Assembly: GCA_020002185.1 (NCBI GenBank)
Contig: CM034539.1
Location: 26,818,032 to 26,882,031 of the forward strand
Direction: 5' to 3'
DNA from: Paraescarpia echinospica
Taxonomy: Eukaryota; Annelida; Polychaeta; Sabellida; Siboglinidae
DNA: 64,000 nucleotides
Shown here: piece after piece, positions 33,758 to 51,078 of the stretch
Layout of the letters: each line of letters starts with the position of its first letter
Position numbering within the stretch: the first letter of the stretch is position 1
Notes under the pieces: model-generated
Database searches by the model: none
The model's input: the letters and a program-made list of their open reading frames with translations, nothing else
What the model was told of the DNA's origin: nothing
Position numbers and translations under genes: made by a program

Positions 33758-34097
33758 AGTAGTATAGAGGCTCTGTTCGACCTCAAACGCCTACTTATAA
33801 AAAAGAATTTAATGACCACTAAACGTTTTCGACAATCTACTTATAAAAAAGATCAAAGGCTTTTTTTGACACTAATTAGTTTCGGAAACCTACTTATAAA
33901 AAACGTGATTGATGAGCGTTGTAATTTGATACTAATTGGATGATTGATTACCCCTACACTAGAGATGCCACCTAGCGGTGAGTGCAGAGAGTATTTTAGT
34001 TCGACTCCTAGCGATCAACGCCGTACCTAGAGCGTGCTGACGTAAGCAATAATGCGTTTATTGCGCTAATATATAACCACTATAAAACCATTGTATA
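33758..34097. repeat. Left terminal inverted repeat of element 2
   Basis: 340 bases, nearly identical to the reverse complement of 50732-51072; similarity stops at TTGTATA (34091-34097). It contains three spaced copies of CTACTTATAAAAAA (33791, 33837, 33890), GATCAACGCCGTACCTAG and CAATAATGCGTTTATTGCG. Confidence 0.96.
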
Positions 34098-34112
34098 TTT
34101 TCCCCGTCATCC

Positions 34113-34328
34113 TTATGTGAATGGCGCGCTGTACCCTATGTTGACAGCAACGATAAGAGTGACGGCTGCTGCTGCAGCGATAAGGCCGGCTGCTGCTCTA
34201 GTGGACTTTGACCCCTGGATGACAGCATAGCTGGCTAACGGTAAACAACGTTCTGGTGGAAGGATTAAAACGAAACCAATGCGTTTAAATACATCTAGTC
34301 GTGGGATTACAATGAAAATCAAATGCAT
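34113..34328 (-). CDS. Small hydrophobic protein, element 2 left end (candidate)
   Basis: A 71-aa frame ending AAAGLIAAAAAVTLIVAVN then IGYSAPFT, with one clear transmembrane segment in the C-terminal half. The N-terminal part (MHLIFIVIPRLDVFKRIGF) is also hydrophobic. It abuts the left TIR and lies downstream of the acidic-protein gene on the same strand. I recognise no family. It may be an exon of a longer transcript. Modest support only: length, hydrophobic pattern and placement. Confidence 0.4.
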   Translation of the reverse strand: MHLIFIVIPRLDVFKRIGFVLILPPERCLPLASYAVIQGSKSTRAAAGLIAAAAAVTLIVAVNIGYSAPFT

Positions 34329-34403
34329 AAATACACTAACGTTCAGTAGAGTGTTTATGCATTGGAAACAGACGTGTGAAAACGTGAGTAGTGACTGAAT
34401 TAT

Positions 34404-34698
34404 TTATTGCGGAGCGAGCATTCGGCCGCGGCCAACGGGTTGCCTGCTGCTCTCCGGGGAACCGAAACCTTCCCGACGATATAGTTCGCGAGGAACGATT
34501 GTTTTCCACAGCCCGTTGGCCTGCTTCACGAGAAATATTCTAGCCAGATCGGCGATGTCGTCGTCAGAGTCGTCAGTGTCAGTGCCTGTCGGCGTGATGA
34601 CGTGCGTAGGAGGCGGCGACGTGTGGATGAATGGTGCGACCGTGCATGTTGGCTTGGTCGACGTCGTCGATGCGCCGGTTGTAGGCAGTTGGATCGGT
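34404..34698 (-). CDS. Acidic Thr/Pro-rich protein, exon 2, element 2
   Basis: Follows the acceptor TTTATTTCATAG at 34699-34700 and completes an Arg codon begun in exon 1 (CG|A). It reads PIQLPTTGASTTSTKPT, a Thr/Pro-rich linker, an acidic patch TDTDDSDDDIADLARIFLVK, then LWKTIVPRELYRR, ending GRGRMLAPQ. The acidic-hydrophobic patch looks like a transactivation or protein-binding motif, but I recognise no family. The stop TAA is embedded in the sequence CAATAAATAA, so the stop codon and a potential poly(A) signal overlap. The total product is about 106 aa. Splicing within a Polinton gene is itself notable. Confidence 0.65.
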
Positions 34699-35380
34699 CT
34701 ATGAAATAAACCACATTTTAAACAAAGGACGAGAACCATGCATTGTTTAAATGAGAACCACATAAAATAAAATGATGCATTGTTTAAATGATGATATAAA
34801 ATGAGACATGGTATTTAAACGGTAAAATGCATGCATGCATGCGTACTTAATTGTAGTAAAAATAAAATGAGACTTACAATTGTTTAAATGGTAAAATAAA
34901 ATGCATGCATGCAGGCGTATTAAATAAAAAAAACAATACATTTTAAACAAAGGATGAGAACCATGCATTGTTTAAATGGTAAAATAAAATTACAAGGTTG
35001 TGAAATAAAATAAAATGATGCATTGTTTAAATGATGACATAAAATGAGACATGGTATTTAAACGGTAAAATGCATGCATGCATGCGTGCTTAATTGTGGT
35101 AAAAATAAAATGAGAGATACAATTGTTTAAATGGTAAAATAAAATGCATGCATGCTGGCGTAGTTACAACAACTGTTTAAACAGTAAAATAAAATACATG
35201 CATGCATGCGTACTATTTAAACGATAAAATACATGTATGCATGTTGCGTACTTACAACAGCTGTCGTAAAATGAGAGACGTGCATGCATGTACGCGTACT
35301 TACAATTGTTTAAATGGTAAAATAAAATGCATGCATGCATGCATGATGCGTAGTTACAATTTAAATGTGTTGGATCTTAC
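34699..35380. repeat. Intron built of ATGCATGC/TTTAAATGG repeats
   Basis: Runs between the donor GTAAGA (minus, 35375-35380) and acceptor (34699-34700). It contains about ten imperfect copies of a unit with TTGTTTAAATGGTAAAATAA and ATGCATGCATGC, both palindromic in part. There is no coding. Confidence 0.8.
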
Positions 35381-35406
35381 CGTTGCGTTGTCGTGGATGT
35401 GTCCAT
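35381..35406 (-). CDS. Acidic Thr/Pro-rich protein, exon 1, element 2
   Basis: Twenty-six bases: ATG at 35406 encodes MDTSTTTQ plus two bases of an Arg codon, followed by the strong donor CG|GTAAGAT. Phase fits exon 2 exactly, which is why I pair them across the 682-bp repeat-filled intron. A transcript start upstream (towards 35500) was not identified. Confidence 0.6.
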
Positions 35407-35519
35407 GTTAGATGAACATTGTGGAGCGATGTATAGGCGTCGAATGTGCGTGACTGTAAAAGTGTGTATGAAATGTGCGCGCCGTCAAACAGCGGTGGCG
35501 GCGGCGGCGCATGACACTA

Positions 35520-36290
35520 CGGTTTATCTTGGTTGGAATGTGAACGGAGAACAAAGGATTTTTACAAACAATAAACGAAACGTTAAAAGCATGAAATTAA
35601 ACATTGTATACGATCACTGGGGGGTCAGGAAACACGAGATGCATCGATATTAGAGAAATTTGCTGTAAAAGTCACATTTGACAATGGATGCACTGACGTG
35701 AACGCTAACTTTTTTCCTAAAACAAATTCCTCGGTAGACTAGACAGAATGCGTTAAGTGCACATGCACGTAAATGTGACATCTGTTGCGCGTGACTTAAC
35801 GCGATTGGAATGTGAACGGAGAACAAAGGATTTTTACAAACAATAAACGAAACGTTAAAAGCATGAAATTAAACGTTGTATACAATCACTGTGGAGTCAG
35901 GAAACAGGAGATGCATCGATATTAGAGAAATTTTATGTAAAGAGAGATTTAACGGTGAATGTACTGACGTGACCGGAAACTTTTTTCCGAAAACAAAATG
36001 CCTGGGATGAATCAAGTATGCACGCTGATAATTGAATAAGATAACGATATGAGTGTGAAGTGCGCATGCGCGTTATGTTGTAGACAATGACATTTCAAAA
36101 ACAATAAACGAAACGTTAAAAGCACGAAACTAAACGTTGTATAGGTTCGCTGTGGAGTCAGGAAACGTGAGGTGCATCGATATTAGAGAAACTCGATGTA
36201 AAGAGAGATTTAACGGTGAATGTACTGACGTGCCCGGAAACTTTTTTTTGAAAACAAAATGTCTGAAATGTACGAGGCACGCACGCTGAT
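35520..36290. repeat. Three upstream direct-repeat modules before the RPA-like gene
   Basis: A block of about 200 bases (AACAATAAACGAAACGTTAA, GATGCATCGATATTAGAGAA, ACTGACGTG, AACTTTTTTCC) occurs at about 35560-35740, 35845-36010 and 36097-36265, period about 250-285. Each is followed by a GTGCGCATGCGCGTTA-like text; after the third comes the TATA box. Upstream regulatory modules or an origin are plausible (inference). No gene is seen. Confidence 0.8.
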
Positions 36291-36345
36291 AATTGAGTAA
36301 GATGACGTATTAGTGTGAAGTGCGCATGCGCGTTATTTGGAAAAG

Positions 36346-36352
36346 TATAAAA
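36346..36352 (+). promoter_or_regulatory. TATA box of the RPA-like/alternative-splice unit
   Basis: AAAGTATAAAACGG, 103 bases before the ATG at 36455 and just after the third upstream repeat module. The leader contains ACAACAGCAG and GCAGCAAGCAGCAG and has no upstream ATG near the start. Confidence 0.7.
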
Positions 36353-36454
36353 CGGTTGAGAAAAAGCTATATTGTATGGCGCTGAAGTTCTAACGTGTAT
36401 TCTTTCTACAACAGCAGAGCAGCAAGCAGCAGACGTTCTTCCGCGATAGACAAC

Positions 36455-37231
36455 ATGGCGGATGAAAGTCAACAACAACCAAAAAAGACGAAGGCGCCGC
36501 GCAAGCAGTCAATGAAGGCGGCGGCCAGCAGCGGTCAACAGCAACCTTCGCCGCTGATTGCAGCCGTGTCAACGGGGGCGTCACCACCCGTTAAGCGCCC
36601 CGTCGCGCTCATTGCGGCCCCGTTGACTGTCGGGCGAAAGCGAAGCGCTGAAGAGGCGTCCTTGGAGCCCGTCGAGACGGCTGAGCGGCCCCCAGTCCTG
36701 TCGCGGAGCAGTTCTATGGAGCGTGAATGCGAATCGTCGGCGTCGACGCGCGCCACAGTGGTGAGTCTGAGACATCTGAAGTGTGCTGTCAACGGTGTGT
36801 ATAAACTTCTATCGCCCGTTATGATCGACGCCGTCTCGTACAAAGAGGTCGGCACCTATTTGGGATGTTCCCGTTGTCGCCGGAAATTGCAGACAAGCAA
36901 AGGTGGGGAACTGATATGTCGAACGCACGGTGAAGTGTCGGTACCGAAATATTTCTTCGCGTTGCGTGTGATGGTGAAGGACGGCGAGGAGGAGGAAGAC
37001 GAGCTTTGGCTTACGTTGTTTGATAGCCAAATGTCTAATCTCGTCGAGTACACGGCCGAGTACTTGACGGAATTGAACGAGGAAGATCTCCGCGATACCG
37101 TGCTCGAGTTAGCCGGCACTAAAGTGGAGATTAGTGTGCGGAAGACGAGTTGGAACGGGGAGCCCTCGTATACAGTCCGTACACTAAAGAGATACGTCGT
37201 CGTCATCGTCGACGACAACGACGATGACTAA
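36455..37231 (+). CDS. RPA-like single-stranded DNA-binding protein, element 2
   Basis: A 258-aa protein from ATG 36455 (CAACATGG context). Residues 1-102 are disordered, rich in Lys, Pro, Ser and Gln (MADESQQQPKKTKAPRKQ) with repeated A-A-P-L/A-V-S segments. From residue 103 it reads VSLRHLKCAVNGVYKLL, YLGCSRCRRKL, GELICRTHGEV, YFFALRVMV, WLTLFDSQMSNLVEYTAEYL, a zinc-ribbon/OB pattern (C-x2-C...C-x2-H) like the C-terminal domain of RPA1. I infer ssDNA binding during replication of the element. A strong phase-0 splice donor (36761) sits exactly at the domain boundary. It ends in an acidic tail DDNDDD. No copy is visible in element 1. Confidence 0.75.
   Translation: MADESQQQPKKTKAPRKQSMKAAASSGQQQPSPLIAAVSTGASPPVKRPVALIAAPLTVGRKRSAEEASLEPVETAERPPVLSRSSSMERECESSASTRATVVSLRHLKCAVNGVYKLLSPVMIDAVSYKEVGTYLGCSRCRRKLQTSKGGELICRTHGEVSVPKYFFALRVMVKDGEEEEDELWLTLFDSQMSNLVEYTAEYLTELNEEDLRDTVLELAGTKVEISVRKTSWNGEPSYTVRTLKRYVVVIVDDNDDD
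36761..36766 (+). promoter_or_regulatory. Splice donor at codon 102 of the RPA-like gene
   Basis: ACAGTG|GTGAGTCTGAG is close to the consensus donor. It falls between codons 102 and 103 (phase 0), directly after the disordered leader domain and before the zinc/OB domain. Four acceptors downstream are also phase 0. Confidence 0.6.
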
Positions 37232-37258
37232 TGTGTTGTTGTCTTGTGTTGTTTGTAG

Positions 37259-37447
37259 GAGGAAGATTGGCCGATACTGGTAGATTTATTGACGCACGCG
37301 AACGAGCGACAACGAACGAAAGAGCGTCGTGGTTGGGAAATAAGCGAGGAGAGCTTTCAACTATTAGCCGAGACGGCCGAACAATACATAAGAGCGTTTT
37401 GGCTAGCTTACGAAGCAAGCATATTTTGTAGTAGTTTGATGTACTAA
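37259..37447 (+). CDS. Alternative C-terminal module B (62 aa)
   Basis: Opens exactly after the acceptor TTGTGTTGTTTGTAG; the TAG is in frame, so there is no frame upstream and no ATG. It reads EEDWPILVDLLTHANERQ, then RRGWEISEESFQLLAETAEQ and IRAFWLAYEASIF: helical, acidic and aromatic-rich. It stops at 37445-37447 inside TACTAAC, which could be the branch point of the next acceptor. I infer it is spliced to codon 102 of the RPA-like gene, giving about 164 aa. No family recognised. Confidence 0.55.
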   Translation, partial: EEDWPILVDLLTHANERQRTKERRGWEISEESFQLLAETAEQYIRAFWLAYEASIFCSSLMY

Positions 37448-37469
37448 CAGTTGTGCTTATATGCTTTAG

Positions 37470-37625
37470 GAAGTGCGCCGCGTACTGGAAAACATGCTTG
37501 CAAACAACGAAAGGATTCGCGCTCAGTACGACGAGGTTGCCTCGTTCGTAAGAACGTTGTTGGAACGCGGAGTGCAGGGGTCGATAAAGAGGGAGGAAGA
37601 GATCAAGAAGGAGGAGGCGGACTAA
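37470..37625 (+). CDS. Alternative C-terminal module C (51 aa)
   Basis: Opens after the acceptor TATATGCTTTAG with TAG in frame. It reads EVRRVLENMLANNERIRAQY, DEVASFVRTLLERG and ends KREEEIKKEEAD: a strongly predicted coiled coil or long helix. There is no ATG at the start. Phase 0 again, so joining to codon 102 would give about 153 aa. The stop is 23 bases before the next acceptor. No family recognised. Confidence 0.55.
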   Translation, partial: EVRRVLENMLANNERIRAQYDEVASFVRTLLERGVQGSIKREEEIKKEEAD

Positions 37626-37651
37626 TCATAATAATAATAATGTGTTTGTAG

Positions 37652-37732
37652 GAGGCTCTGATGCAACACACCAGACGTGAGTGTATGAGCGACTTCCTAC
37701 ACGCGTTCCTGACGGTGATTCGTAAAGAGTAG
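37652..37732 (+). CDS. Alternative C-terminal module D (26 aa)
   Basis: Opens after the acceptor AATGTGTTTGTAG. It reads EALMQHTRRECMSDFLHAFL then TVIRKE: a short helix with one cysteine. Phase 0. It contains an internal GTGAGT (near 37675, phase 1) that could serve as another donor. It would give a 128-aa product if joined to codon 102. It is short, so coding status rests on the repeated architecture. Confidence 0.42.
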   Translation, partial: EALMQHTRRECMSDFLHAFLTVIRKE

Positions 37733-37750
37733 AACTGCTTTGTGCTGTAG

Positions 37751-38413
37751 GGTGGTGGAGTGCGTGACGCCCACGTATTGGACGCGATCATCGAGGAGGC
37801 GCTGGGCGGTTCGAACCGAACGCGTCCCGCTCCACCGACGTATAACGAAAGCCTGGGGACGATGGGACCGACGTGCTCTCCGTACTGGAGCGTATCGGAG
37901 GAGCTTGGGACGTGCCAACGGCAAATTGTCGTGCCGAGCCGGAGTCAGTTGGTCGGGCGTTATGAACGACTGGCGATGGACCTCGTCGCCGAGAGTCTCG
38001 GCGAAATGATTCTGGAGAAGGCGCGGGATCATTGCGGGGTATGTGAGCCGAATGAAGGCTGTCCATATGTACACATGCCCGGCTATCGTGCTGGTCGGCC
38101 AAATCGTGTATACATGCAACGTTTCGATAATCCGGGCTGTATTGTGACGCGCTATTTCAACGCCGTCATCGAAACGTTCCTGCGTCGATCGCTCATCCCC
38201 TGTTTCACGAGACTCGTACATATTCTACACGAAACTACGGTGTCGACTTCTTCCGGTGGTCAGCAGCGGCAAACGGGCCGTGCGGGAGAGTTGCATTTGG
38301 TGCAGTTTGTGTCGAACTGGTTGTTGGGAACAAATTGGCGCGATTATATGAATCGCGTGCAACTCGAGTCGGCCGTGCACACGTACGTGCAACGCCGGAG
38401 CGGACTGGAATGA
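37751..38413 (+). CDS. Alternative C-terminal module E (220 aa)
   Basis: Opens after the acceptor CTTTGTGCTGTAG with GGGVRDAHVLDAIIEEALG. A Pro-rich stretch follows, then RSQLVGRYERLAMDLVAESL, a cysteine cluster CGVCEPNEGCPY, YFNAVIETFLRRSLIPCF, and a C-terminal domain with FVSNWLLGTNWRDYMNRVQ. It is the longest module and clearly coding by length and composition. The first in-frame ATG is well inside (MGPTCSPYW), so splicing to an upstream start is likely; with codon 102 the product would be about 322 aa. I recognise no family; C-x2-C-x5-C may bind zinc. A regulatory or oncoprotein-like early gene is one possibility. Confidence 0.65.
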   Translation, partial: GGGVRDAHVLDAIIEEALGGSNRTRPAPPTYNESLGTMGPTCSPYWSVSEELGTCQRQIVVPSRSQLVGRYERLAMDLVAESLGEMILEKARDHCGVCEPNEGCPYVHMPGYRAGRPNRVYMQRFDNPGCIVTRYFNAVIETFLRRSLIPCFTRLVHILHETTVSTSSGGQQRQTGRAGELHLVQFVSNWLLGTNWRDYMNRVQLESAVHTYVQRRSGLE

Positions 38414-38517
38414 AGAAGCACGAACGAACACTAGAATAGAGAACATTTTGCTAATATTTGCTTGCTACTGAAACAAAGGCTTCAACGACGCTGTGTTTGA
38501 ATGTTGTAAGAGTACCG

Positions 38518-38523
38518 AATAAA
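38518..38523 (+). terminator. Shared poly(A) signal of the alternative-splice unit
   Basis: AATAAA about 105 bases after the stop of module E, the only plus-strand AATAAA I see between 36455 and 38600. It would serve all modules. Confidence 0.6.
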
Positions 38524-38564
38524 ACGTTGAAAATGTAATTTCCGTTTCCGAGTTACCCACAACA

Positions 38565-38710
38565 ACATTAGTTAGAAAAATTACCGCTAGTCACCACCGC
38601 AAACACATTCCCCACCGTACCTTAGTTAGAAAAATGACATTAGTTAGAAAAATTACCGCTAGTCACCACCGCACCTTAGTTAGAAAAATGTCCGCTAGTT
38701 CGCGCAATCA
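38565..38710. repeat. Short direct repeats upstream of polymerase
   Basis: TTAGTTAGAAAAATTACCGC plus TAGTCACCACCGCA occurs twice complete and three more times in part, then a (CAC)n tract at 38752-38770. Possibly regulatory; it lies between the early poly(A) signal and the polymerase TATA box. Confidence 0.75.
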
Positions 38711-38785
38711 CCATTCCGAGTTACCGCATTCCTCCCGCTAGGGTGTACTTACCACCACCACCACCACCACCGTCACCGTCGCTGT

Positions 38786-38793
38786 TATAAATA
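38786..38793 (+). promoter_or_regulatory. TATA box of polymerase B, element 2
   Basis: GCTGTTATAAATAGCGG, 31 bases before the ATG at 38824. As with NADAR, the distance implies a leader of a few bases. Confidence 0.65.
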
Positions 38794-38823
38794 GCGGTGC
38801 TCGAAAAAATATCATTAGAGAGA

Positions 38824-41800
38824 ATGCCACCATCGTCACCTACTAGAAGGCAATGTCCGAAATGCGGGCGCTATTTCGTGAAACAGTCGACGTTAGAACG
38901 ACACGTAAAGAGTTCGAAAAGTTGCGGCGACGAAGCGCTATGCGTAAAACGTCGAGAGTCCAAAATGTGGCGCGATGTTCACCGCGCGTCACGCTATGCT
39001 ACAACATCTGAGGCTGCGGTGTGGCCGTCAGACGTCGCCACCTCCTGGTAGTAGTAGTAATGAGTCAGCGGTGGTGGCGGAGGCGGCAGCCGCTAGGGCG
39101 CCGTCACCCGACGATCTACAGCGTGTCGTGGACGAGCACCGGCGTAGCATAGAGACGTCGGTAGCGCGCGGTGCCGTACAGTCGCGTTACAACTATCGTA
39201 TGACCGCCTGTACGAGTACGCGGGTGCTCGAACCGAGTCTGAGGGAAATGTTTCGCGAACAAAAGAACGCGTTTAAAATTAACGAAAGCTATGGTTTTGT
39301 ATTACGCCACAAGGTGTCGGGTCGGTACCGATATTTTTATTCTTCGTGTAACTGTTGCGGTCGCCTCCTCGAAACACCCGCCGTAGTCACCGATAGCCGT
39401 TCGTTCGAACGATTCCTCGACGCCGTGCGCACGACCGACGTACTGCAGTACGCCATCGCGCAGCGCCCCGACTCGGGGTGGATCGTCGAGCTCGTAACGA
39501 ACGCCACCTACTTCGTGAACTTCATCATCAATCATCCTATCGGCTGCGTTGGCGTGGCGACGCTTCCCGCCTACGTGCGCTTCAACAGGGCCATCGTGTC
39601 GTTGACGAAAGATCATCGAGGCACGCCCTACGACGACCATCTGTGTCTCTTCCGATGCATCGGACTCCACCTGCAAGGTCACCGACGAGGCGAAAGTATC
39701 CGCCACATCGATACGAACCGTTTAACGAAAGTCGCTAAACGTCTGCACGCGCAGTATTGTCGCGCCGCGCGCACGTCGGCCTCGAACGGTGTGCGCCTGA
39801 ACGAACTGGATCGCGTGGAGACGGTTTTCGACATCAACATCGTCGTCTATCGTCGACTGACGAATGACGTCGCCGAACTAGTCCGTCGATCGCGCGAAGC
39901 GCACCCCACGACGCTGAACGTCAACCTGTACAAGTCGCACTTCTCGTACATAAGCGATCCGCGCGCGTACACGAAAACGTACAAGTGCGGAAAATGTGGC
40001 AACGCCCTCTGGCGGAACGCGCGCGAGTTACGACGTCAAAAAGCGACGTGCGAAGGTGGCGTTCTTCACGTGTTCCCCGGCGGCGTCTACCGATCGTCGC
40101 CATCCGTATTCGAGCGGCTCGACGACGAAGGCATCGACGTCGGCGCCGACGACCTGCGCTACTACCCGTACCGCGCGACGTTCGATTTCGAGTGCTATTT
40201 CGCCGATAACGATCTGCCGACGGATACCGACAAATGCCGCTGGATCGCGCGACACGAACTGCTCAGCGTGAGCGTCGCGTCGAACGTGCCCGGTCACGAA
40301 GCGGCGCGGTGTTACATCACGACCGGCGATTCGACGGAACTCGCGCGTCGCCTCATCGACGACCTGGAAGCGGTGAGCGCGGCGGCGTGCGCGATTCGAC
40401 GTCCCCGCTACGACGCGACCTTCGAGGCGCTCGACGCGATCGACGCCGACTGGCGGCGACGATGCAACGACGACGACGACGCCGACGCGTCACCGTACGC
40501 CATTCTCGCCGACCGGCTCTGGACGTACCTTCGTCAAATGCCCGTATTGGGATTCAATTCGGGTAAGTACGACCTCAGTGTCGTCAAAAAGTACTTGACC
40601 CCCCTGCTCATAACCGGCGACGCGCAGCACACGTCGTCGGTGTTTACCATTAAACATCAGAACAATTACATGTGCCTGTCGACGACGACGTTGAAGTTCC
40701 TGGACATAACGAATTACCTCGCGCCCGGCGTTAGCTACGATCGCTTTTTGAAAGCGTACGGTTGCTAGGCAACGAAGGGCTACTTTCCGTACGAATATAT
40801 CGACGCGTTGACGCGTCTGGACGAAACCGCCCTGCCGTCGCGCGAAGCTTTCTACAGCCAGCTGAAACGCGAGGGAATCTCCGCGGAGGCGTACGAGATT
40901 TGCGCGACGGCGTGGCGTGACGAGGGCATGACGTCGATGCGCGATTTTCTTGTGTGGTATAACGATCGTGACGTGGCGCCGTTTCTCGAGGCCGTCGATC
41001 GCCAGTTCGCATTCTATCGGCGCCGACGTATCGACATGTTCAAGGACGCCATCAGCGTACCGGGGTTGACGTTGTTGTATCTGTTCAACGACCTGCCGAC
41101 GTCGATCCATTTCTCGCTCTTCAACGAGCCGAACAAAGATCTGCACCGTCTGGTGCAGGCGCAGATCGTCGGCGGCCCGTCGATCATCTTCGCGTGCCAC
41201 CACGAGGCCGACGTGACGTCGATTCGAGGCGACGACGCGCCGTGCCGATCGATAGTAGGCTTCGACGCAAACGGCCTCTATCTATGGGCGAAAATGCAGG
41301 AGATGCCGACGGGCTGGTACAAGCGCCGGCGTGCTGAGAACGCCTTTCGAGCGGAACGCGTGCACCGCTACGGTCGTCTGGCCGTGGAGTGGTTGACGTG
41401 GGTGGAGGTGCCAACCGGCGCGCGTATACGTCACCAGTTGAACGGACGCGAGAAGCGCATCGGAAAGCACCGAGTCGACGGCTGGTGCGCCGCCACGCGA
41501 ACGGCGTATCAATTTCACGGCTGCTATTTTCACGGCTGACCGACGTGCCAGGCGCACGTGACGACGAACGCCGTCAACGGTCAACCGATGACGACGCTGT
41601 ATGCCTCGACGATCGCCGTGATCGCCTACCTGCGCCGTTTCGTCGACGATGTCGTCGAAATGTGGGAGTGCCAGTGGCACGCCGTGCGACCGCCGGAGGT
41701 GCCGACGCCGCCCGACGCGTCACGATGGCAACCACCACTGAGCACGACCATTACGCTCTCGACGATACTGGAGGCGGTGCGTGACGGCTCAATGTTCGGC

Positions 41801-43000
41801 CTCGTGCAGTGCGATATCGCCGTGCCGGAAGCGCTGCGCGACAAGTTCGCCGAGATGCAGCCCGTATTAAAGAACGTCGATATCGTACGCGACGATCTCA
41901 GCCCGTTCATGCGCGACTACGCCGAGTCGCACGATCTCCTCACGGGACCTCAACGGACGGTCGTCGGTAGCTACTTCGGCGCCGCGATCGTGATCGCGAC
42001 GCCGCTCCTACGCTGGTATCTGGCGCACGGTCTCGTCGTCGAGCGCGTCTACCAGATCGTCGAGTACGCGCCGATCGCGTGCTTTCGCCGCTTCGGCGAC
42101 GCGGTCTCGACGGCGCGACGCGAGGGCGATATCGATCCCGACAAATCGATCATCGCCGATACCTTTAAACTTCTCGGCAACAGTTCCTACGGGAAAACGA
42201 TTACGCGCGTCGCTCGGCACAGTGAAATCAAGTACGCCACGCCGGTCGGCGCGTCGATGCTCGTCAACAATCGGCCCTTCCGGCAACTCGACGTCGTCGT
42301 CGACGACGCGCTGTACGAGGTGGCGCTGAATAAGCGCAAAATCATCTACGGCCTGCCGATACACATCGGCTATTTCGTATTGCAGTACGCAAAATTGAGA
42401 ATGCTGGAATTTTAGTTCGATTTCATCGACGCCTACATTCCCCGTCCGCTCTTCCAGTACTGCGCTTTGGACACGGTCTCGGCGTACATCGCCCTCGCCG
42501 GACGTGACGTCGACGCGCTCGTACCGGAAGAACGTCGCGAACACTACTTCCGGAATCGTTCGCTCTGGTTTCCGGCCGAATGCTGCGACGCGCACGTGGA
42601 CGCCTACATACGACGGCGCGTCGCCGGACTAGCGTGGGAGGAGGCGGCCTGCTGCGCGCGCCGACGCCTGTTCGATCGTCGAACGCCGGGACTCTTCAAA
42701 GAAGAGTGGCGCGGCGACGGAATCGTGGCGCTGTGCAGCAAGACCTACTACTGCTTCGGCGGCGCCGCCGGTCCAAAGTACAGCACGAAGGGACTGAGCA
42801 AGCGACAGAACGACATCGACTAGCACACCTTCCTCGCCGTACTGCGCGACCGTCGCAAAGGCGTCGGCTGGAACCGCGGTTTCCAAGTGAAAGACTCTTC
42901 CGTGTTGACGTACGTCCAAGAGCGCGCGGCGTTGAGCTACTTCTACGCTAAACGCCGCGTGCTCGACGACGGCGTAACCACGGCGCCGATACTCGTCTAA
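38824..43000 (+). pseudogene. Protein-primed DNA polymerase B of element 2 with N-terminal zinc fingers (broken)
   Basis: Starts MPPSSPTRRQCPKCGRYF with a C2HC finger (CPKCGRYF...LERHVKSSKSC). A one-base frame shift near 38944-38970 (AAAA runs) precedes a second finger-like unit (KCGAMFTARHAMLQHLRLRC). The frame is then uniform to 43000 but carries stops at 40766-40768, 41537-41539, 42413-42415 and 42821-42823. Motif A GFDANGLYLW and motif B LLGNSSYGKT are kept, but motif C reads LDTVSAYIA: the second catalytic aspartate codon GAC is GTC at 42476-42478. So catalysis is lost independently of the stops. The stops differ from those in element 1, hence independent decay. Confidence 0.93.
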
Positions 43001-43177
43001 CTCGTATAACTCTAACTCGTCTAACTCGTCGTCTAACCTAACCCCCACCCCCCTAGGGGTAGTTTCTGTATGTATGTATGTAGGTAGGGTAATAATAAAC
43101 ACCAACAACAATGTACATGATCGTTTGTTTGTTTTTTTATTTCTACTACTACTACTATACACGTAAAAGCGGTGAAA
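43001..43177. terminator. Convergent poly(A) region, element 2
   Basis: Same layout as in element 1: ACTCGTCTAACTCG repeats, a CCCCCCTAGGGG palindrome, TATG repeats, plus-strand AATAAA at 43094-43099 and minus-strand AATAAA at 43136-43141. Confidence 0.7.
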
Positions 43178-43636
43178 TTAATGATGCGGTTTTAATAAAT
43201 CGTATACGAGACAGTCATTGGTCACCCGATTGGTGCCGAATAGGCTCTGGAACGTCGTCAACGGCATACCGCGACATCGGAGGAGAAGGTAGGCGACGCA
43301 ATATTGTCCGCACACGTTAGAGATGACGCTCTGCAGCCGCTTGTCGTTGTACGTCCACGCGTCGCCGCAGTGAAGGCGCAGGAACGCGCGGAAGTCGGCG
43401 TGCAGCGGCGGCAGACCGTACGAATCGAAGTACTCGCCTCGTCGGTCGGCGTCCACGTAGACGGCCACCCAGTGCTGTCCCGGTTCGCCGCCGTCGTCGG
43501 TGTTGCACACGAAGGCCGTCGGGTAAACGGTGGTGACGGTGGCGGTAAGTAGCGGGTCTTTAGGCACGACGCCGACGACGATACGTTTAGCGTACGTATC
43601 GTGTTCCAGACGACGCATCAGTTGAAACGTATCCAT
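43178..43636 (-). CDS. Adenain-like cysteine protease, element 2 (intact)
   Basis: 152 aa from ATG 43636 (MDTFQLMRRLEHDTYAKR). Catalytic landmarks are HWVAVYVDADRRGEYFDSYG (His plus the acidic residue), then WTYNDKRLQS with the oxyanion Gln, and CGQYCVAYLLLRC with the nucleophile Cys. This is the adenovirus-protease-like fold found in Polintons, which cleaves capsid-associated precursors. It lies at the 3' end of the late block, next to the polymerase poly(A) region. The size is typical for a minimal Polinton protease. The copy in element 1 has a stop before the catalytic His. Confidence 0.92.
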   Translation of the reverse strand: MDTFQLMRRLEHDTYAKRIVVGVVPKDPLLTATVTTVYPTAFVCNTDDGGEPGQHWVAVYVDADRRGEYFDSYGLPPLHADFRAFLRLHCGDAWTYNDKRLQSVISNVCGQYCVAYLLLRCRGMPLTTFQSLFGTNRVTNDCLVYDLLKPHH

Positions 43637-43641
43637 AGTTA

Positions 43642-44943
43642 CTACCAGTCGTACACGACGTTCCGGTTCCGGTCGATCTCCATCACCGTCTCGAATTCCG
43701 CGTACACGACGACGTTCACCGGAAGCGGTAGCGGCGTCCCGAAGTGCATTTCGACGCCCACGCTCCCCTGACGCACGACGTTGAAATGGTCACCGTCGCA
43801 ACAGTCGGGGGTCAGGTCGGAACCGAAGATGGTGTAGCCGGCGCCGAAGTCCGTGAGCGATACGTCGTTCCCATCGTCCTCGTACGCCTTTCCGCTCGCC
43901 TCGAAGAGATTCATGTAGCTCCGCACGTACCGGTTGTGCGGGAAGTCCGGCTGCAGCGGCTTGCTCGGCACCTGACGTCCGTCGACGACGAGCGTGAGGA
44001 AGTTTATGTCGTTGTGACGCGCGTCGAACGGATTTCTAGTGTAGTCGCCGTTGTAGGCGACGTTATCGATCATCATCAGGAAGAGGCGTTTCGGAATCGC
44101 ACCCATGTACAGGTTCTCGTGCGTGTGCGATAGCGTACCCGCCGTTATCGAGAACGATTTGCAGTCGACGCGGCGCATCGGAAACTTAGCCGTTCCCAAC
44201 GTCCACGCTTTGATATATCCCATCTGGACGGCCGGGTTCAACTTCACTTTTCGCACGTGCAGTCGAATCGCCTGCAGCACGACGCGCCACCCCGGTACGG
44301 CTTGCGCGCCCATGAGCGCGAAGGCGTCCTTCGAGCGCACTATGCGCACTTTCGTATCTACGCCGTTCGGTATGTGTCTGTTTAGCATAAACGCGTCGAC
44401 CTGCACGCGTCCCATCATCTCCACCTCGTTGCTATCGGCCGTCATGACGCGTCGTGCCTCGAACCCGACGTTGGCGTTGCCGAGCGTGTCCATCCGTCCG
44501 GCGGTTTCTTTGTACCACAACGAATCCGTCAGATGCGAACGTTTCGCGTCGCTACCGTAACTCAGCAGCGTCTCGAGGTAGGCCCGGTACGCGTACGTAT
44601 TGGTCGACGGCGTCACGAGGGTGTTGTTCAGCGACACGTCGATTTGACTGATCATCGAATGCAGGAAATTGTTGACCAGCGCCACCGCGGCGGCGGCCGC
44701 CAGATCGGTACCGTCCCCCCGCGTCACTTTGAAGCGCACGTACACTTGAAGACTCGCCAGGTCCGTATAGTCTTCGCCCGAACCCGGGATGAGGAACTCG
44801 ATAGGGCCGCCGGCGTCGAGAGTCGTCAGCGGCTGGTAGACGGTCCACTGACCGCTCTCGATGCTCGTCTGCGTCACCGGTCCGCTGAACAGCTCCAGTT
44901 CGGCCTTCACGCCCTCGCACGTCGAGCCGTTCACGAACGCAAT
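43642..44943 (-). pseudogene. Major capsid protein, element 2 (full-length frame, ATG lost)
   Basis: An open frame of about 433 codons: AFVNGSTCEGVKAELELFSG, DAGGPIEFLIPGSGEDYTDL, NNFLHSMISQIDVSLNNTLV, then FLMMIDNVAYNGDYTRNPF and YVRSYMNLFEASGKAYEDD, ending VVYDW. Double jelly-roll capsid homologue. At the position of the start codon the minus strand reads ATT (44941-44943) instead of ATG, while the duplicated fragment upstream (45427) and element 1 have ATG. The next in-frame possibilities are GTG at 44934 or internal ATGs far downstream. So the protein frame is preserved but initiation is probably impaired. Directly followed by the protease gene. Confidence 0.88.
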
Positions 44944-45556
44944 TACTCGTCGAATATGTCCGTTCGACGCGGTCTCTTCCGCCTACTGACGGCCGTCGCC
45001 GCTAGGCGCGCTCTCTTTATGCCGCCGCCGCCGCGGGGGCGGTGCTGCGTTTGTTTCTTCCGTAGGCGCGGTACGCGTACGTATTGGTCGACGGCGACAC
45101 GAGGGTGTTGTTCAGCGACACGTCGAGTTGACTGAACATCGTATGCAGGAAATTGTTGACCGGCGCCACCGCGGCGGCAGCCGTCAGATCGGCACCGACC
45201 CCCCGCGTCACTTTGAAGCGCACGTACACTTGAAGGCTCGCCAGGTCCGTATAGTCTTCGCCCGAACCCGGGATGAGGAACTCGATAGGGCCGCCGGCGT
45301 CGAGAGTCGTCAGCGGCTGGTAGACGGTCCACTGACCGCTCTCGATGCTCGTCTGCGTCACCGGTCCGCTGAACAGCTCCAGTTCGGCCTTCACGCCCTC
45401 GCACGTCGAGCCGTTCACGAACGCCATTACTCGTCGAATATGTCCGTTCGAAGCGGTCTCTTCCGCCTACTGACGGCCGTCGCCGCTAGGCGCGCTCTCT
45501 TTATGCCGCCGCCGCCGCGGTGGCGGCGCTGCTGCTGCTGCGTTTGTTTCTTCCTC
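44576..45556. repeat. Tandem duplication of the capsid 5' region, period about 484 bp
   Basis: 44576-45060 and 45069-45556 are near-identical: both hold the start of the capsid gene, TACTCGTCGAATATGTCCGT and a GCCGCCGCCGCCGCGG segment. The duplication explains why one capsid start is attached to a full gene and the other to a fragment. Confidence 0.92.
45017..45427 (-). pseudogene. Truncated capsid N-terminal fragment from the duplication
   Basis: 136 codons from the intact ATG at 45427 (MAFVNGSTCEGVKAELEL). It follows the capsid sequence to STNTYAYRAY, where the duplication breakpoint switches it into an unrelated tail (GRNKRSTAPAAAAA). It retains the authentic start and overlaps the stop of the upstream pVI-like gene (TAATGG). 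It contains less than a third of the capsid protein and cannot form the double jelly roll. It could act as a decoy start that captures translation from the full-length frame. Confidence 0.85.
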
Positions 45557-45894
45557 TTCTGCTTCTTCTGCTTCTTCTTTGGCGGCGGCTGCTGCGAATT
45601 CAATAAGCCTTCGAGAAGATCGGCGCCGGCCTCCTTCGCGCGCCTTTTTATCGACTGTTTGAGATTGCCGCCGGCGACGACGTCGCGCGCCACGTGCATG
45701 CCGGTGTTGAGCGCGCGTTTTCCCAACGCCAACGCGCCTCTCTTGATAAGCGGCATGGCGCTTCGAAACAGACTCCCGAAGAGATTACCCAGACCGTGAC
45801 CTCGTTGACCCCGAGCACCGACGAAGACCGGCAGCTGTCCGCCGACCTGACGAACGTAGTAGTCCACGTACGGGTTCTTCGACGACGGCGACAT
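45427..45894 (-). CDS. Small basic virion protein, pVI-like candidate, element 2
   Basis: 155 aa from ATG 45894 (MSPSSKNPYVDYYVRQVG), matching the element 1 protein through RGQRGHGLGNLFGSLFRS, MPLIKRGALALGKRAL and LLNSQQPPPKKK. It is then extended by a Lys/Gln-rich tail and GGIKRARLAATAVSRRKRP because the element 1 stop is absent. It ends at TAA overlapping the ATG of the capsid fragment. A minor virion role is inferred from position and the amphipathic basic helix. The extension is probably secondary. Confidence 0.72.
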   Translation of the reverse strand: MSPSSKNPYVDYYVRQVGGQLPVFVGARGQRGHGLGNLFGSLFRSAMPLIKRGALALGKRALNTGMHVARDVVAGGNLKQSIKRRAKEAGADLLEGLLNSQQPPPKKKQKKQKRKKQTQQQQRRHRGGGGIKRARLAATAVSRRKRPLRTDIFDE

Positions 45895-45895
45895 G

Positions 45896-46696
45896 TTAAA
45901 ACAGTTTCGATTTACAGCGTCTGAAGTGAAGCGTCGTCACCACCTTCCCCTGCTCGAATGGTATCGGTTGGCCGTGATCGTCTCTTATATCGACTTCGAT
46001 CTCGTCGAATTGATTCCGCAGCAGCTTCACGTATTGCACGCGATCGAACGTTTCCGAAATAACGTCACCGTTCTCACCGCGGACGGCGATGTTTCGAAGG
46101 AGCGGCGCGTACACGTGACCGACGAAGCGCGGTTCCACGAGATCCGTGTACACGTACAGACTCTCGATGCCCGCCGACATAGTCACCGTATCGCGACCTT
46201 CGTACTCGAACGTGTACGCAGGTGCTATGGAAACCTAGCACGTGCCTCTTGTGAGGTATGATAAATTCGACACCCGGCGACATACGTAGCGTAAATCGGT
46301 TAGAGACGCCGCAGTATTGTAGCACGGCCTTGACCTTCCTGGTGCATAATTTATTTAGCGCCTCGTTGATCCTGTTCAACAACGTATAAACGTTGTTGTA
46401 GAAACCGTGAGGAATCGTCGTCTGACGATATATCAGCACGGTCGAGCCGTCTTTGTCTACCTGCGTGTAAACACCCGGTTCGCCCGCCGCGCAAGTCAGA
46501 TAGAAGTAGGCGTCCTTCTTTCTCACGTTGAACCACGTGTGCGGATACTGTACCGACACCGCGCCGCATTCCCACTCCCCGACAGGTCGAAACGTCGCGG
46601 CAACGTCGTGACGTAGTGCGTCAACGTATTTTCGGGGTGACGTTTCATAGACGCGTTGCTCGGCAGCGTCAGGTAAAAATCAGACGAGGCCGCCAT
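45896..46696 (-). pseudogene. Penton-like minor capsid protein, element 2 (frameshifted)
   Basis: Start at 46696 (MAASSDFYLTLPSNASMK). A one-base loss in the C run near 46577 breaks frame after FDLSG. The frame resumes with YPHTWFNVRKKDAYFYL and FYNNVYTLLNRINEAL to about 46265. About 70 bases, plus a smaller gap, present in element 1 are then missing near 46215-46260, so the frame shifts again before SLYVYTDLVEPRFVGHVYAP. The tail runs to a TAA at 45896. Element 1 has the better copy. Without a penton protein this element could not build a complete capsid alone. Confidence 0.88.
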
Positions 46697-48095
46697 CGTG
46701 TCGTCGTCGACGTTCGCCGCCGCCGCCACCGACACTCATAGACGGACTCGGAAGCAGGTAACCGAGATGGCTGCTCAACAGCGCCATCCACAGGTTGGAG
46801 TCACCTTGACCTTTCGTCAGATTGTATATACTAACGGCGATGACAAAGTACAGGACGACGACCTGACAGAGGAATACGATTTCGGCCTTAGGGCATTCGT
46901 TGCCGAAGATTCGCCATGGAACGGGTTCGGCGGTGGTTGTAGCGTCGATGGAGTCCGCGTCGTGCTCGTCGACGGATGATTGCTCGGCGTCGGCGTTCGT
47001 TCGACGATCGCCACTCGAGGTAGTTTCGTCGTCGTCGCACATCGTCGCGCCACTGCGCGCTGTCGATGCAGCAGGGACCTTTATACGGTAAGAACGAAGA
47101 TCCGGAACGACTACGCGTTGTAATTCCGGTTCGTAGAAGGTGCCCTCTATCGGCGTCTCGGCGTCGTCCTTCAGGCGATAAACGGGCGGGTCGGACGGGT
47201 GCACCTCTACGACGGTGAACAGCTCCTCGCTCCAGTTAGCCATGTATCCTTTTTTGAATTGACCCCTCGTCTTGCTGATACGTACGCGATCTCCCACGCG
47301 TAGTTTCGGTTTTCGTCGTTGATCGTCGCCACCCACGTACAGTCGTTGCCATACGGCCTCCTGACTCGTCGCGTCGACACTCGCCGGCGTCCTACCGATG
47401 CTTCGGTGGTAGGCGTTGTTGTACGATCGCACGAAATCCGGTAACGCCTCTACGTAGCGGAGCGTTTCGTGTTTCGTAAAATAGCGCCACATACGCGTCT
47501 TCAAAGTTCGATTAAACCGTTCCACGACGCTCGCTTTGGTCTCCTCGTTATGCGTCACGAAATGATGAACGCCGCGACTCTTTAGCAACGTTTGCAGGGG
47601 TCGGTTCAAAAACTCGCTCCCCTTATCGGTCTGCAGCGTGTTCGGCGTCTCGTCGTCGTCGCTCAGCAGGCGCACGAAGGCCGCGACGAGCGACGGACCG
47701 GACTTACTCTTCAACGGAACGCACCACGCCCACTTCGAAAACACATCGATCACCGTCAATAGGAATGTTATACCGTCGTTGTACGTTTTCAGTCTAGTCA
47801 AGTCGACCAGATCGGCTTGCCACTGCTGGTTTCGACCGCCCACGATGACGCGACGTCGTTTGAAATGACGTCTAACCGGTTTGTGTAGGATATAGGCGTC
47901 CTGCGACGCTAGCCATCTCTCGACGGCCGGACGTCGGAGCTTCGACGCCCGGTGCAAAGCGTCGACGCCTCCGTAACTCCCCACCCGTTTCGGATCGAAG
48001 TACGCGTTATTCAGCTCGTCGTCGTCGACGTCGACGTCGTTTCGTTGCTGTCGAGGCTTTCGTTTTGGATGACGACGACTCCACCCGGACACCAT
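46680..48095 (-). CDS. Integrase fused in frame to the membrane protein, element 2
   Basis: 471 codons from ATG 48095 (MVSGWSRRHPKRKPRQQR). A basic N-terminus is followed by SYGGVDALHRASKLRRPAVE (zinc-binding-like domain), then the catalytic core LVDLTR...VIDVFSKWAW...TDKGSEFLN...ETKASVVERFN (D, D, E; 34 residues between the last two). Next come an SH3-like domain NWSEELFTVVEV and GTFYEPELQRVVVP. At about 47104 a deletion of roughly 240 bp relative to element 1 joins this to the membrane protein, CDDDETTSSGD and AEIVFLCQVVVLYFVIAVSI. The core looks intact. The internal TATA box and ATG at 47042 may still give the separate membrane protein. Confidence 0.88.
   Translation of the reverse strand: MVSGWSRRHPKRKPRQQRNDVDVDDDELNNAYFDPKRVGSYGGVDALHRASKLRRPAVERWLASQDAYILHKPVRRHFKRRRVIVGGRNQQWQADLVDLTRLKTYNDGITFLLTVIDVFSKWAWCVPLKSKSGPSLVAAFVRLLSDDDETPNTLQTDKGSEFLNRPLQTLLKSRGVHHFVTHNEETKASVVERFNRTLKTRMWRYFTKHETLRYVEALPDFVRSYNNAYHRSIGRTPASVDATSQEAVWQRLYVGGDDQRRKPKLRVGDRVRISKTRGQFKKGYMANWSEELFTVVEVHPSDPPVYRLKDDAETPIEGTFYEPELQRVVVPDLRSYRIKVPAASTARSGATMCDDDETTSSGDRRTNADAEQSSVDEHDADSIDATTTAEPVPWRIFGNECPKAEIVFLCQVVVLYFVIAVSIYNLTKGQGDSNLWMALLSSHLGYLLPSPSMSVGGGGGERRRRHDGGLV
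47079..47085 (-). promoter_or_regulatory. Internal TATA box inside the integrase fusion
   Basis: CCGTATAAAGGTCCC on minus, 37 bases before ATG 47042 (MCDDDETTSS). Identical to the box in element 1. Confidence 0.55.
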
Positions 48096-48202
48096 GACGA
48101 CGACGACGATGATAAATGTACGATGATTATTATACCCGTATAGAGTGCGATAAGCGCGATGTTGAAGTCGACGATGATCGTTATCGCGCGTCGTGACGGC
48201 AT
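48011..48202 (-). CDS. Small membrane protein, element 2
   Basis: 63 aa from ATG 48202: MPSRRAITIIVDFNIALIAL then a hydrophobic run and a Ser-rich tail. The ATG overlaps the TGA of the upstream gene (TGATG), as in element 1. The stop used by element 1 after IIIIVH is changed to a sense codon, so the frame extends over the start of the integrase gene (48095). The conserved part is the first 31 residues. Confidence 0.55.
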   Translation of the reverse strand: MPSRRAITIIVDFNIALIALYTGIIIIVHLSSSSSSWCPGGVVVIQNESLDSNETTSTSTTTS

Positions 48203-48961
48203 CACAACAACGTATCCCACGCCGTGACGCCCAACGAAGAGGATCGTTGTCTGCGTTTAGGTTCGCCTCGCATCCGACGACGTCTCCACTCCGACGGCGC
48301 TGATGAACTAGACGTCGTCGGCATCATCATCGCCTCTTCTAGTAGGTGCTTCTGTCGTCGCTCCATGTACGATCGATAGCGCGGGTTGCCTACGAATTCT
48401 ATAGGGATATTCATATCCTTCATGTGCAATCCGAACTCCCGCCATCCTACGGGCGCCGTCGTCTTCGATCTCGTTCGCATGAGATCGTTTACTAGATCGA
48501 CCATATTACTCCCCGCGACCGTTTTACCGTCGTACACGAATTCACCGCGATCGTTCCATCGGATCGGCTTTCATTTTTTCGATAAGCAGTCCCGTCTTCC
48601 CTTTCAACGTTTTCGGAATACTGGCTATGATTTCGCGCTCTACCACCTCCGACGATGGTTGCGCCACCGCCGCCGCCGCCGCCGCCGGCACCGCAGGTGT
48701 CTCGCCGCTGTTGACCACCGACACGCGTACCGGTTGCGCCGCTCGAGCCGCCTCTATCGTATTGTACCGACTCAGCAGTTGATTGTACGACGCTACCTTT
48801 TCGCGTTCCGATAAATCCGAACGTTCTAGAATGTCCTTCATGTCGCTGTCAAGGCTACTCAGCACTCGTGATCGGGGCGTGCACGACGACTGATCGACAC
48901 GTGGCAGAAGGCTTTCCACCAATCGTGGATCGACCAACGCCATCTTCTTCGCGTACTGCAT
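48202..48961 (-). pseudogene. Conserved 253-aa Polinton protein, element 2 (8-base deletion)
   Basis: Start MQYAKKMALVDPRLVESL at 48961. The frame is open through KGKTGLLIEKMKADP and then shifts near 48560, where element 2 lacks eight bases present in element 1. The C-terminal domain continues in another frame (YDGKTVAGSNMVDLVNDLM, GWREFGLHMKDM). The single lesion points to recent loss. The product would lack the conserved C-terminal domain. Confidence 0.88.
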
Positions 48962-48964
48962 CAA

Positions 48965-49366
48965 TCACCCGCTGCCGAACACCTGTCTGAGCAGCGGCAG
49001 GAGAACGGTACTCGCTAACGGCGCTAGCAGGGCCGTCAGAAAACCACCCGCACCCTTTTGCAAGATGACACGCTTCTGCTTACGCGTAACGTGTTTGTCG
49101 ACGAGTTTACGCAGGTGATCCCGGTATTTCGCCAACACGCGTTTCAGTTTCGGCGACAACTTCACGTTCCCTTTCAGAATGTTGTACGCGCAATCGCACA
49201 GACTACAAATGAGACCGGTGTCCGCGTGGGCGAGTAGGGCTTTTCGCAGAGCGATGTTCCGCCTATGTCTCTCCAACAGCTGCAGGGCGACGATGTGTCT
49301 CTTTATTTGAATCGTCGGTGCCGCCACCTTCGGTCGTCTCTTCGCTGCCACCGCGCGCCCCGTCAT
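48965..49366 (-). CDS. pX-like small basic protein, element 2
   Basis: 133 aa from ATG 49366, same length as in element 1. Basic N-terminus (MTGRAVAAKRRPKVAA), ICSLCDCAYNILKGNV, KRVLAKYRDHLRKLVDK, then the hydrophobic tail FLTALLAPLASTVLLPLLRQ. All differences from element 1 are substitutions, none disabling, so the protein has been kept while neighbours decayed. The role is unknown; DNA condensation or membrane contact are inferences from composition. Confidence 0.76.
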   Translation of the reverse strand: MTGRAVAAKRRPKVAAPTIQIKRHIVALQLLERHRRNIALRKALLAHADTGLICSLCDCAYNILKGNVKLSPKLKRVLAKYRDHLRKLVDKHVTRKQKRVILQKGAGGFLTALLAPLASTVLLPLLRQVFGSG

Positions 49367-49404
49367 AGCGACTAATAAACGTACGCCCCGTCGTCCCTCT
49401 CTTC

Positions 49405-50061
49405 TTATAGTCCGCCGACGCCACCACCACCACCGCCGCCACCCTTCCGTACGTACACGTACTGAAGGCGATCGTCCGGAAATATGCACGTACGCAGGCG
49501 CATGTCCTCTTCCGTTTCCTGTTTCAGATCCACGAATAGATAGCCGTACGCCGACGATGTCGCGTCTTTGAAAGCCTCTATCATGTAGTTGACCTTTCCC
49601 GGGTACATCTGTTTCGCTAGGTGACCTACTTGACCGGCGTCTCGAGGGCTCTTGAATAGCACTATGTATTGAGCGTTCAGGCTGATTGTACGGTTTTCTT
49701 TCCCTTTCGGAAACATGTTCTGTCGCAATTGTACGACCGACGTATTACAATGATGACTTTTTTTAGTAAATAGTACCGTCACCCGGCTATCGGTCTCCTC
49801 CATGAGGTCGTCGAATACTAGAAGCGTTCTCGCTTTACCGTCTAAACGTTTCGGATCCGGCAGGCCGTCTACGAACTCTATTTTCGAAGACATAGACGCG
49901 TAGCCGCTCTGCCACTGTCCGTAACACCACAGGATTTTCTCCGGCGGCGGATCGATCATAGTGTCGTAACGTATCAAACGCTCGACGAACGTCGTCTTAC
50001 CGCATCCCGTAGGACCGGCTACTATACACGTAAAAGGATGCTTCAACGACGGTCCGTTCAT
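49405..50061 (-). CDS. FtsK/HerA-type DNA packaging ATPase, element 2
   Basis: 218 aa from ATG 50061. Walker A GPTGCGKTTFVERL, Walker B region RTLLVFDDLMEE, then VQLRQNMFPKGKENRTISLN. Nearly identical to element 1; differences cluster in the C-terminal glycine run. It is the packaging motor expected for capsid-forming Polintons. It lies 28 bases after the NADAR stop, and a TATAAG-like box for the next gene overlaps its own stop codon, indicating very tight gene packing. Confidence 0.93.
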   Translation of the reverse strand: MNGPSLKHPFTCIVAGPTGCGKTTFVERLIRYDTMIDPPPEKILWCYGQWQSGYASMSSKIEFVDGLPDPKRLDGKARTLLVFDDLMEETDSRVTVLFTKKSHHCNTSVVQLRQNMFPKGKENRTISLNAQYIVLFKSPRDAGQVGHLAKQMYPGKVNYMIEAFKDATSSAYGYLFVDLKQETEEDMRLRTCIFPDDRLQYVYVRKGGGGGGGGVGGL

Positions 50062-50089
50062 TTTTCACGACTGAACGACGAACACTTTT

Positions 50090-50545
50090 TTACGCGTCTT
50101 TGTAACCATCGCGCAACTTCATCAACAGTTTACCGAGCATGTTCTTCCCCACATCGCCCGCGATTCCGCAACCCCAGAAACCCTCCCTACTCTCTACCCA
50201 TTCCACCAATTCGGCGTCCCCGGTCGCCATCAGTGCAGCCTTCAAATCGCTCGATCCGTCAAACTTCCTCCTCAACAACATCTTCATACATCTCACCCTA
50301 ACGTCGGTCCATTTGGTTTCCGTTCTCTTTAGTCGAATGTCGTAACCGCGTCGTTTCGCTGCATAAGAGCTTCGCGAACTTTTGATTTCTACGGCACATT
50401 CCACGTCGTCGTAGAATATCGCTTTCCTATACTGATAGGCGTGCTCGACGGATCGAAAGCCTCGACCGAACGCCGACACTCGACACATATACATATTCGA
50501 CAAGAACGACCGCGATCCACCAAACCTTATAGGCGACGACATCAT
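50090..50545 (-). CDS. NADAR-domain (YbiA-like) protein, element 2
   Basis: 151 aa from ATG 50545 (MMSSPIRFGGSRSFLSNMY); the second ATG matches the element 1 start. It keeps FRSVEHAYQYRKAIF, AKRRGYDIRLK, MKMLLRRKFDGSSDLKA, LMATGDAELVEW and FWGCGIAGDVGKNMLGKLLM. Compared with element 1 there are about 30 substitutions but no stop or frame shift, and every family motif is retained. The pattern suggests selection on the protein. It is the first gene inside the right TIR, with a TATA box 33 bases upstream. Confidence 0.9.
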   Translation of the reverse strand: MMSSPIRFGGSRSFLSNMYMCRVSAFGRGFRSVEHAYQYRKAIFYDDVECAVEIKSSRSSYAAKRRGYDIRLKRTETKWTDVRVRCMKMLLRRKFDGSSDLKAALMATGDAELVEWVESREGFWGCGIAGDVGKNMLGKLLMKLRDGYKDA

Positions 50546-50577
50546 ACCGACTACCGATCACCCGCTAGCGCCAACGC

Positions 50578-51072: not shown

Positions 51073-51078
51073 CACGCA
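51073..51078. repeat. Target site duplication, right copy
   Basis: CACGCA directly after the last base of element 2, identical to 33752-33757. Confidence 0.97.

Follow-up and report, generated by a model that had tools for sequence, protein, structure and literature searches.

How might a single early gene of a Polinton express a series of short open frames that do not begin with a start codon of their own? The question is raised by an element in a 64,000 nt stretch of the genome of the vestimentiferan tubeworm Paraescarpia echinospica (assembly GCA_020002185.1, contig CM034539.1, positions 26,818,032 to 26,882,031, forward strand), which we refer to as the window and in which positions are counted from the first letter. 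In its early unit a leader exon runs either into the rest of an RPA-like open-reading frame (ORF; module A) or up to a 5' splice site, and four further frames follow (modules B, C, D and E), each opening directly behind a splice acceptor. A preliminary description had proposed alternative splicing from one leader to several C-terminal modules, a proposal supported by the conservation of the sites and frames and by their recurrence in relatives, and we consider it very likely that this Polinton early unit makes a protein family in which a single leader exon is spliced to alternative 3' splice sites.

In this scheme, one pre-mRNA would run from the TATA box at 36346 to the AATAAA at 38518, with a single promoter and a single poly(A) signal. 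Where the donor at 36761 is not used, the product would be leader-A, an RPA-like protein; where it is used, the 102-codon leader would be fused in phase 0 to one of the four other modules. Each of these ends at a stop of its own, and A, B and C have their stops packed into what may be the branch point (a CTAAY motif) of the following acceptor. From these sequence features we infer the splicing itself, the leader fusion, which acceptors are used and when, and also that the modules act as separate effectors.

Structure and conservation of the early unit

Module E was searched against the 1.084 Gb genome (3111 contigs) and gave at least 151 matches, with 150 of 2028 candidates scored. We sampled 100 places from the list, the best 20 plus 80 drawn from both its upper and its lower part, and after removal of the window's own copy 99 copies were aligned, six of which were partial or had larger gaps.

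All features of the unit lie on the forward strand. The leader exon (36455..36760) starts with an ATG at 36455 and consists of 102 low-complexity codons, ending at a phase-0 5' splice site, GTGAGT (36761..36766), which is located inside the RPA-like ORF and whose GT is present in 98 of the 99 copies, the other one having a gap. A leader of this length, closed by a strong phase-0 donor, had been described before, and direct reading of the sequence bears out all of the coordinates. Unspliced, the frame continues into module A (36761..37234, stop at 37232-37234), which carries an RPA C-terminal-like domain (Rep_fac-A_C in Pfam, E = 1.7e-8; RPA1 chain 6i52_C in PDB, E = 5.6e-4). Beyond it, TAG acceptors at 37258, 37469, 37651 and 37750 open directly into phase-0 frames of 62, 51, 26 and 220 codons, as had been claimed: module B (37259..37447, stop at 37445), module C (37470..37625, stop at 37623) and module D (37652..37732, stop at 37730), all putative alternative terminal exons, and module E (37751..38413, stop at 38411), a putative terminal exon. 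The preliminary description had each frame end a short way before the next acceptor, and the distances from the preceding stop to the acceptors of B, C, D and E measure 24, 22, 26 and 18 nt. Its statement that the modules lack a start ATG holds in so far as none begins with ATG, but in-frame ATGs occur within all four, in the window copy at codons 61 (B), 9 (C), 4 (D) and 38 (E), and at codon 20 of B in 96 of the 99 other copies. The preliminary description had only one AATAAA after the modules, and the one at 38518..38523, present in 96 of 99 copies, is the sole conserved poly(A) signal of the early unit; AATAAA at any other position of the unit is found in fewer than 10 copies each.

Upstream of the leader, a TATA-box-like sequence lies at 36346..36352, TATAAAA being kept in at least 89 copies (counted over the five commonest forms), and directly 5' of it stand three tandem copies of a repeat of ~224 nt (35551..36307), possible early enhancer or promoter repeats that are reminiscent of duplicated viral enhancers.

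The acceptor AG is kept in 99 of 99 copies for C and in 98 of 99 for both D and E. Leader plus A is open to its usual length in 64 copies, B in 90, C in 85, D in 98 and E in 78. Module D is exactly 26 codons long in 98 copies, GAG repeat variation adjoining the acceptor of B stays in frame, and the frame of E opens at the acceptor, with its first Met anywhere between codons 24 and 79 across the copies. The gap between B and C measures 22 or 24 nt in 97 copies, so that the reading frames are not kept across it. Nucleotide diversity (pi) in the gaps before C, D and E is 0.022-0.030, the lowest of all parts measured, and 0.051 in the gap between A and B.

The stops of A, B and C, all TAA, lie within CTAAY. 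The stop of A overlaps a branch-point-like GACTAAT (37229..37258 with the acceptor for B), that of B a TACTAAC (37442..37469 with the acceptor for C) and that of C another GACTAAT (37620..37651 with the acceptor for D), and the motif is found near these stops in 95, 93 and 96 of the 99 copies and near the stop of D in none. For the acceptor of E a branch-point-like CTGAC is available inside D, 39 nt 5' of the exon (37709..37750 with the acceptor). A scan of the 60 nt upstream of 13 acceptors in eight loci (the window and the seven divergent loci described below) placed CTAAY 18-28 nt 5' of the exon at 10 of the 13, compared with a background in which the motif lies 12-35 nt upstream of 5.2% of sense positions in the unit, the real sites included, and of 2.6% of antisense positions. 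In two of the divergent loci, L103 and L104, it lies 3' of the stop of A, and is thus kept without the stop. The position and conservation of CTAAY fit a branch point, a naming that depends on the known consensus.

Only two donor-like GTRAGK sites are kept in at least 10 of the 99 copies, the donor at 36761 and a GTGAGT inside module D (37677-37682), which is intact in 96 copies and was absent from the preliminary description. Used as a donor, the D site would put E out of frame and might lower E; third positions around it are quiet anyway.

Selection on the reading frames

Pairwise ratios of nonsynonymous to synonymous substitution (dN/dS), with 95% intervals from a bootstrap over codons, are low in phase 0 for the leader (0.40, 0.27-0.63) and for modules A (0.34, 0.23-0.51), B (0.35, 0.18-0.64), D (0.23, 0.09-0.59) and E (0.20, 0.15-0.28), and the two other frames of these five parts give 0.88-2.88. 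For module C the stop counts favour frame 0, with 7 stops vs. 218 and 72 in the other frames. The early-unit pattern of one donor and four phase-0 acceptors exceeds chance: its sites are kept in the 99 copies, and the leader, A, B, D and E are under purifying selection.

Distinct indels come in multiples of three in 20 of 27 cases in E, 13 of 23 in C, 23 of 41 in A and 22 of 52 in the leader (reference values: 3' untranslated region, 11 of 36; 5' region, 1 of 25); module D shows no indels.

The codons that precede the first common ATG in B, C, D and E, when pooled, give a dN/dS of 0.42 (0.22-0.77), and 0.80 and 1.77 in the other frames, a figure that rests on B (19 codons, 0.41) and E (24 codons, 0.38) since the eight such codons of C stand at 1.02. 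That codons before the ATG are constrained argues that translation reaches the modules from upstream.

Divergent relatives

Searching the genome with the E of L001, a contig associated with Escarpia, gave 143 matches, and the early units of six of these (L103-L108) were read. In all six the RPA-like ORF has a phase-0 donor at the corresponding position, GTGAGT in five and GTAAGT in one; L001 starts within the RPA-like ORF, the stop of which is followed by a TAG acceptor and then by an E frame whose first Met is at codon 112. In all seven divergent loci the E exon begins directly after TAG, its opening helix (VLDAIIEEAL in the window) is recognisable straight after the acceptor, and the first 18 codons of the exon are free of Met. 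Stops or frameshifts interrupt several frames of these loci; we left them unmended. The preliminary description had proposed aligning related Polintons, and had named relatives with ATG-started modules as a case that would speak against it: the donor, acceptors and phase-0 frames are kept in the 99 copies, the plan recurs in the divergent loci, and no such relative was found in the seven, where the E modules lack an early Met and the C-like modules have none.

Module sets differ between lineages. L001, L103, L104, L105 and L108 have A and E only, L106 and L107 have A, a C-like module and E, and the window family has five. The extra module of L106 and L107 is 49 codons long, contains no Met and is related to C (1 of 2000 shuffles in each case). 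We also considered whether the modules are duplicates of one exon and rejected this for the pairs compared, as neither B against C nor C against the N-terminus of E scored above shuffles (the score was reached in 398-1860 of 2000, taking these pairs together with those of L106), and the C-like module of L106 compared with B, D and the N-terminus of E fell within the same range. A basic cluster, which we take to be like a nuclear localisation signal, occurs near the N-terminus of the leader in the window copy and in L103-L106, making a shared nuclear signal plausible.

We also lean towards a broader view, with less confidence than we hold the splicing scheme itself, in which the Polintons of vestimentiferan tubeworms contain a splice-fusion cassette that evolves. 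Its one leader, which probably targets the nucleus, would be linked through a single phase-0 donor to terminal exons that are gained and lost, giving two, three or five C-termini depending on the lineage. Stops would serve at the same time as branch points, and a new effector could be added through the gain of one acceptor and one open frame.

Homologues of module E comprise P0001-P0003 from a large protein database, L001 and L103-L116, and the only named relative lies on a contig of an Escarpia laminata symbiont bin, which we take as host contamination. E carries a CGxC-x5-C-x3-H motif at residues 95-108 that is invariant across 11 aligned sequences, and is mostly helical in a predicted structure, the model being poor; a Bcl-2-like fold was considered as a candidate for it. 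Apart from the RPA domain of A, modules A, B, C and E had no Pfam match, and E had none in PDB; no homologues of module E or of the leader-A ORF were found in viral contigs, nor of leader-A in the large protein database. The 29% match of an actinobacterial contig (L002) over query residues 61-134 is probably due to chance and was left out of the comparison; the ORFs of this contig look like ordinary bacterial genes.

Alternative explanations

Several observations weigh against alternative splicing from one leader to five C-termini. The copies share ancestry, so neither the counts among them nor the bootstraps represent independent events, and all five units are open in only 41 of 99 copies, which means that many copies are decaying. 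At the acceptor of B the A is lost in one of 99 copies, and GAG repeats beside the site block a full column tally; indels in B are multiples of three in 3 of 9 cases and do not stand out. The gap between C and D varies by threes alone (20, 23 and 26 nt) and thus cannot separate coding from non-coding sequence. Selection evidence for module C is weak, since its dN/dS leaves the coding phase undecided (frame 0, 0.53, 0.29-0.95; frame +1, 0.54, 0.32-0.94; frame +2, 1.81), and its first eight codons alone score lower in frame +1 (0.17) than in frame 0 (1.02). The conserved GTGAGT in D matches no nameable product, and CTAAY is missing at the E acceptor of the window, the first acceptor of L106 and the acceptor of L108. 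A genome-wide search for the leader end joined directly to the start of E, as in a spliced or retroposed copy, gave 0 matches, without a positive control. In-frame ATGs stand near the starts of C and D, and the database protein P0002 has its predicted start, an M, at codon 2 of E.

Part of this evidence would suit a gene with two products, leader-A and leader-E. Of the modules after A, E alone would then be a genuine alternative terminal exon, whereas B, C and D would be small exons without a functional protein, acting as decoys or regulators to tune splicing to E or to trigger decay. A and E are indeed the sole modules in five of the seven divergent loci, module C has the weak selection evidence just given, and D is a mere 26 codons with a conserved donor-like site inside it. 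We nevertheless think this unlikely, as the dN/dS intervals of B and D lie below 1, the length of D is constant in all but one of the copies, and L106 and L107 have a homologue of C at the same place.

Less probable still is that B to E are separate small genes, with promoters or internal starts of their own, placed in series 3' of an intronless RPA-like gene. The ATGs near the starts of C and D and the predicted start of P0002 would agree with it, as would vertebrate Maverick genes, which are reported to be intronless (PMC8097293). Against it, the pooled codons before the ATG are under selection, the C-like modules of L106 and L107 have no Met, the acceptor AGs and branch-point-like motifs are conserved, there is just one conserved AATAAA, and the first Met of E moves between codons 24 and 79 in the copies and is as late as codon 112 in L001, whereas the helix ahead of it is conserved. 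Finally, one polyprotein made by readthrough of several stops, or a serial chain of spliced exons, would agree with frames that share a strand and follow in close order, but we give it next to no credence as the A-B and B-C gap lengths vary by non-multiples of three and the only donor-like site kept apart from 36761, that in D, would shift E out of frame.

Comparison with known systems

Alternative splicing from one leader would have its closest counterparts in mode of expression in the early units of adenovirus (E1A and E4) and the early region of polyomavirus. These too have a shared 5' coding exon, several acceptors and one poly(A) signal, with the donor lying inside a larger ORF, which gives the products of unspliced and spliced RNAs different C-termini. 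The tubeworm unit appears to work like them, with one donor, several acceptors, in-frame joins and a shared poly(A) signal, a likeness of mode for which we claim no kinship. Unlike them, it has up to four putative terminal exons, and three of its acceptors have the preceding stop inside a branch-point-like motif, the splicing being predicted.

In its terminal inverted repeats (TIRs), 6-bp target site duplication (TSD), rve integrase and A32/IVa2-like packaging ATPase, the element resembles Polinton/Maverick elements and adintoviruses. Intact vertebrate Mavericks are reported to have intronless genes (PMC8097293), in agreement with Kapitonov and Jurka 2006, whereas the tubeworm Polinton has an early gene with a conserved predicted intron and alternative 3' ends. 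For the adintovirus Penton, alternate C-termini have been proposed to arise through a -1 frameshift (PMC11071296), which likewise gives one N-terminus an alternative C-terminus in a related virus group, but by frameshifting and in a virion gene; the tubeworm unit is predicted to do so by splicing, and in an early gene that encodes an RPA-like protein. A literature search, of limited coverage and with most subscription journals outside it, brought up no report of splicing, alternative or otherwise, in an early gene of a Polinton or adintovirus.

If the scheme is true, Polintons share with adenoviruses a mode of early-gene expression besides packaging genes, and rely on the spliceosome of their host. 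Annotation of Polintons by ORFs would overlook such small terminal exons, which lack an ATG. The prediction could be tested in RNA data from the worm, whose genome has at least 151 matches to module E.

The host element and its neighbourhood

The Polinton occupies 33758..51072 (no strand assigned; 17,315 bp, ends AGTAGTAT). Its TIRs, each of ~340 nt, lie at 33758..34097 (+) and 50732..51072 (-) and share 98.5% identity across 341 columns, and the TSD, CACGCA, is present on both flanks (33752-33757 and 51073-51078). A retrovirus-like integrase is encoded within 46680-48323 (-; Pfam rve, E = 1.1e-12) and an A32/FtsK-like packaging ATPase within 49408-50064 (-; Pox_A32, E = 1.1e-5, and Adeno_IVa2, E = 1.7e-5, both passing the curated cut-off). 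A long frame at 38948-42823 is PolB-like by eye and has in-frame stops at 40766, 41537 and 42413, although the early unit of the same copy is open; its first three pieces gave no Pfam match up to E = 0.1, one piece gave no PDB sequence match, and no homologue of a PolB piece was found in viral contigs. The frame at 43642-44982 (-) resembles a double-jelly-roll major capsid protein, again by eye, with no Pfam match, a poor best PDB sequence match (E = 0.63) and no homologue found in viral contigs or phage records; the start of this capsid-like gene is duplicated locally in the window copy (44552-45485, ~480 nt apart). Close to the right end of the element lies a NADAR-domain gene (50093-50557, -; Pfam E = 2.7e-25), a possible cargo.

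A second Polinton, truncated by the window start, occupies positions 1-11323; the main pieces that the two share are 85-93% identical, and its early unit lies outside the window. A tandem array of a 56 nt repeat starts at 18051 and extends for ~4.6 kb, with 79 copies in register reported, 30 of them listed.

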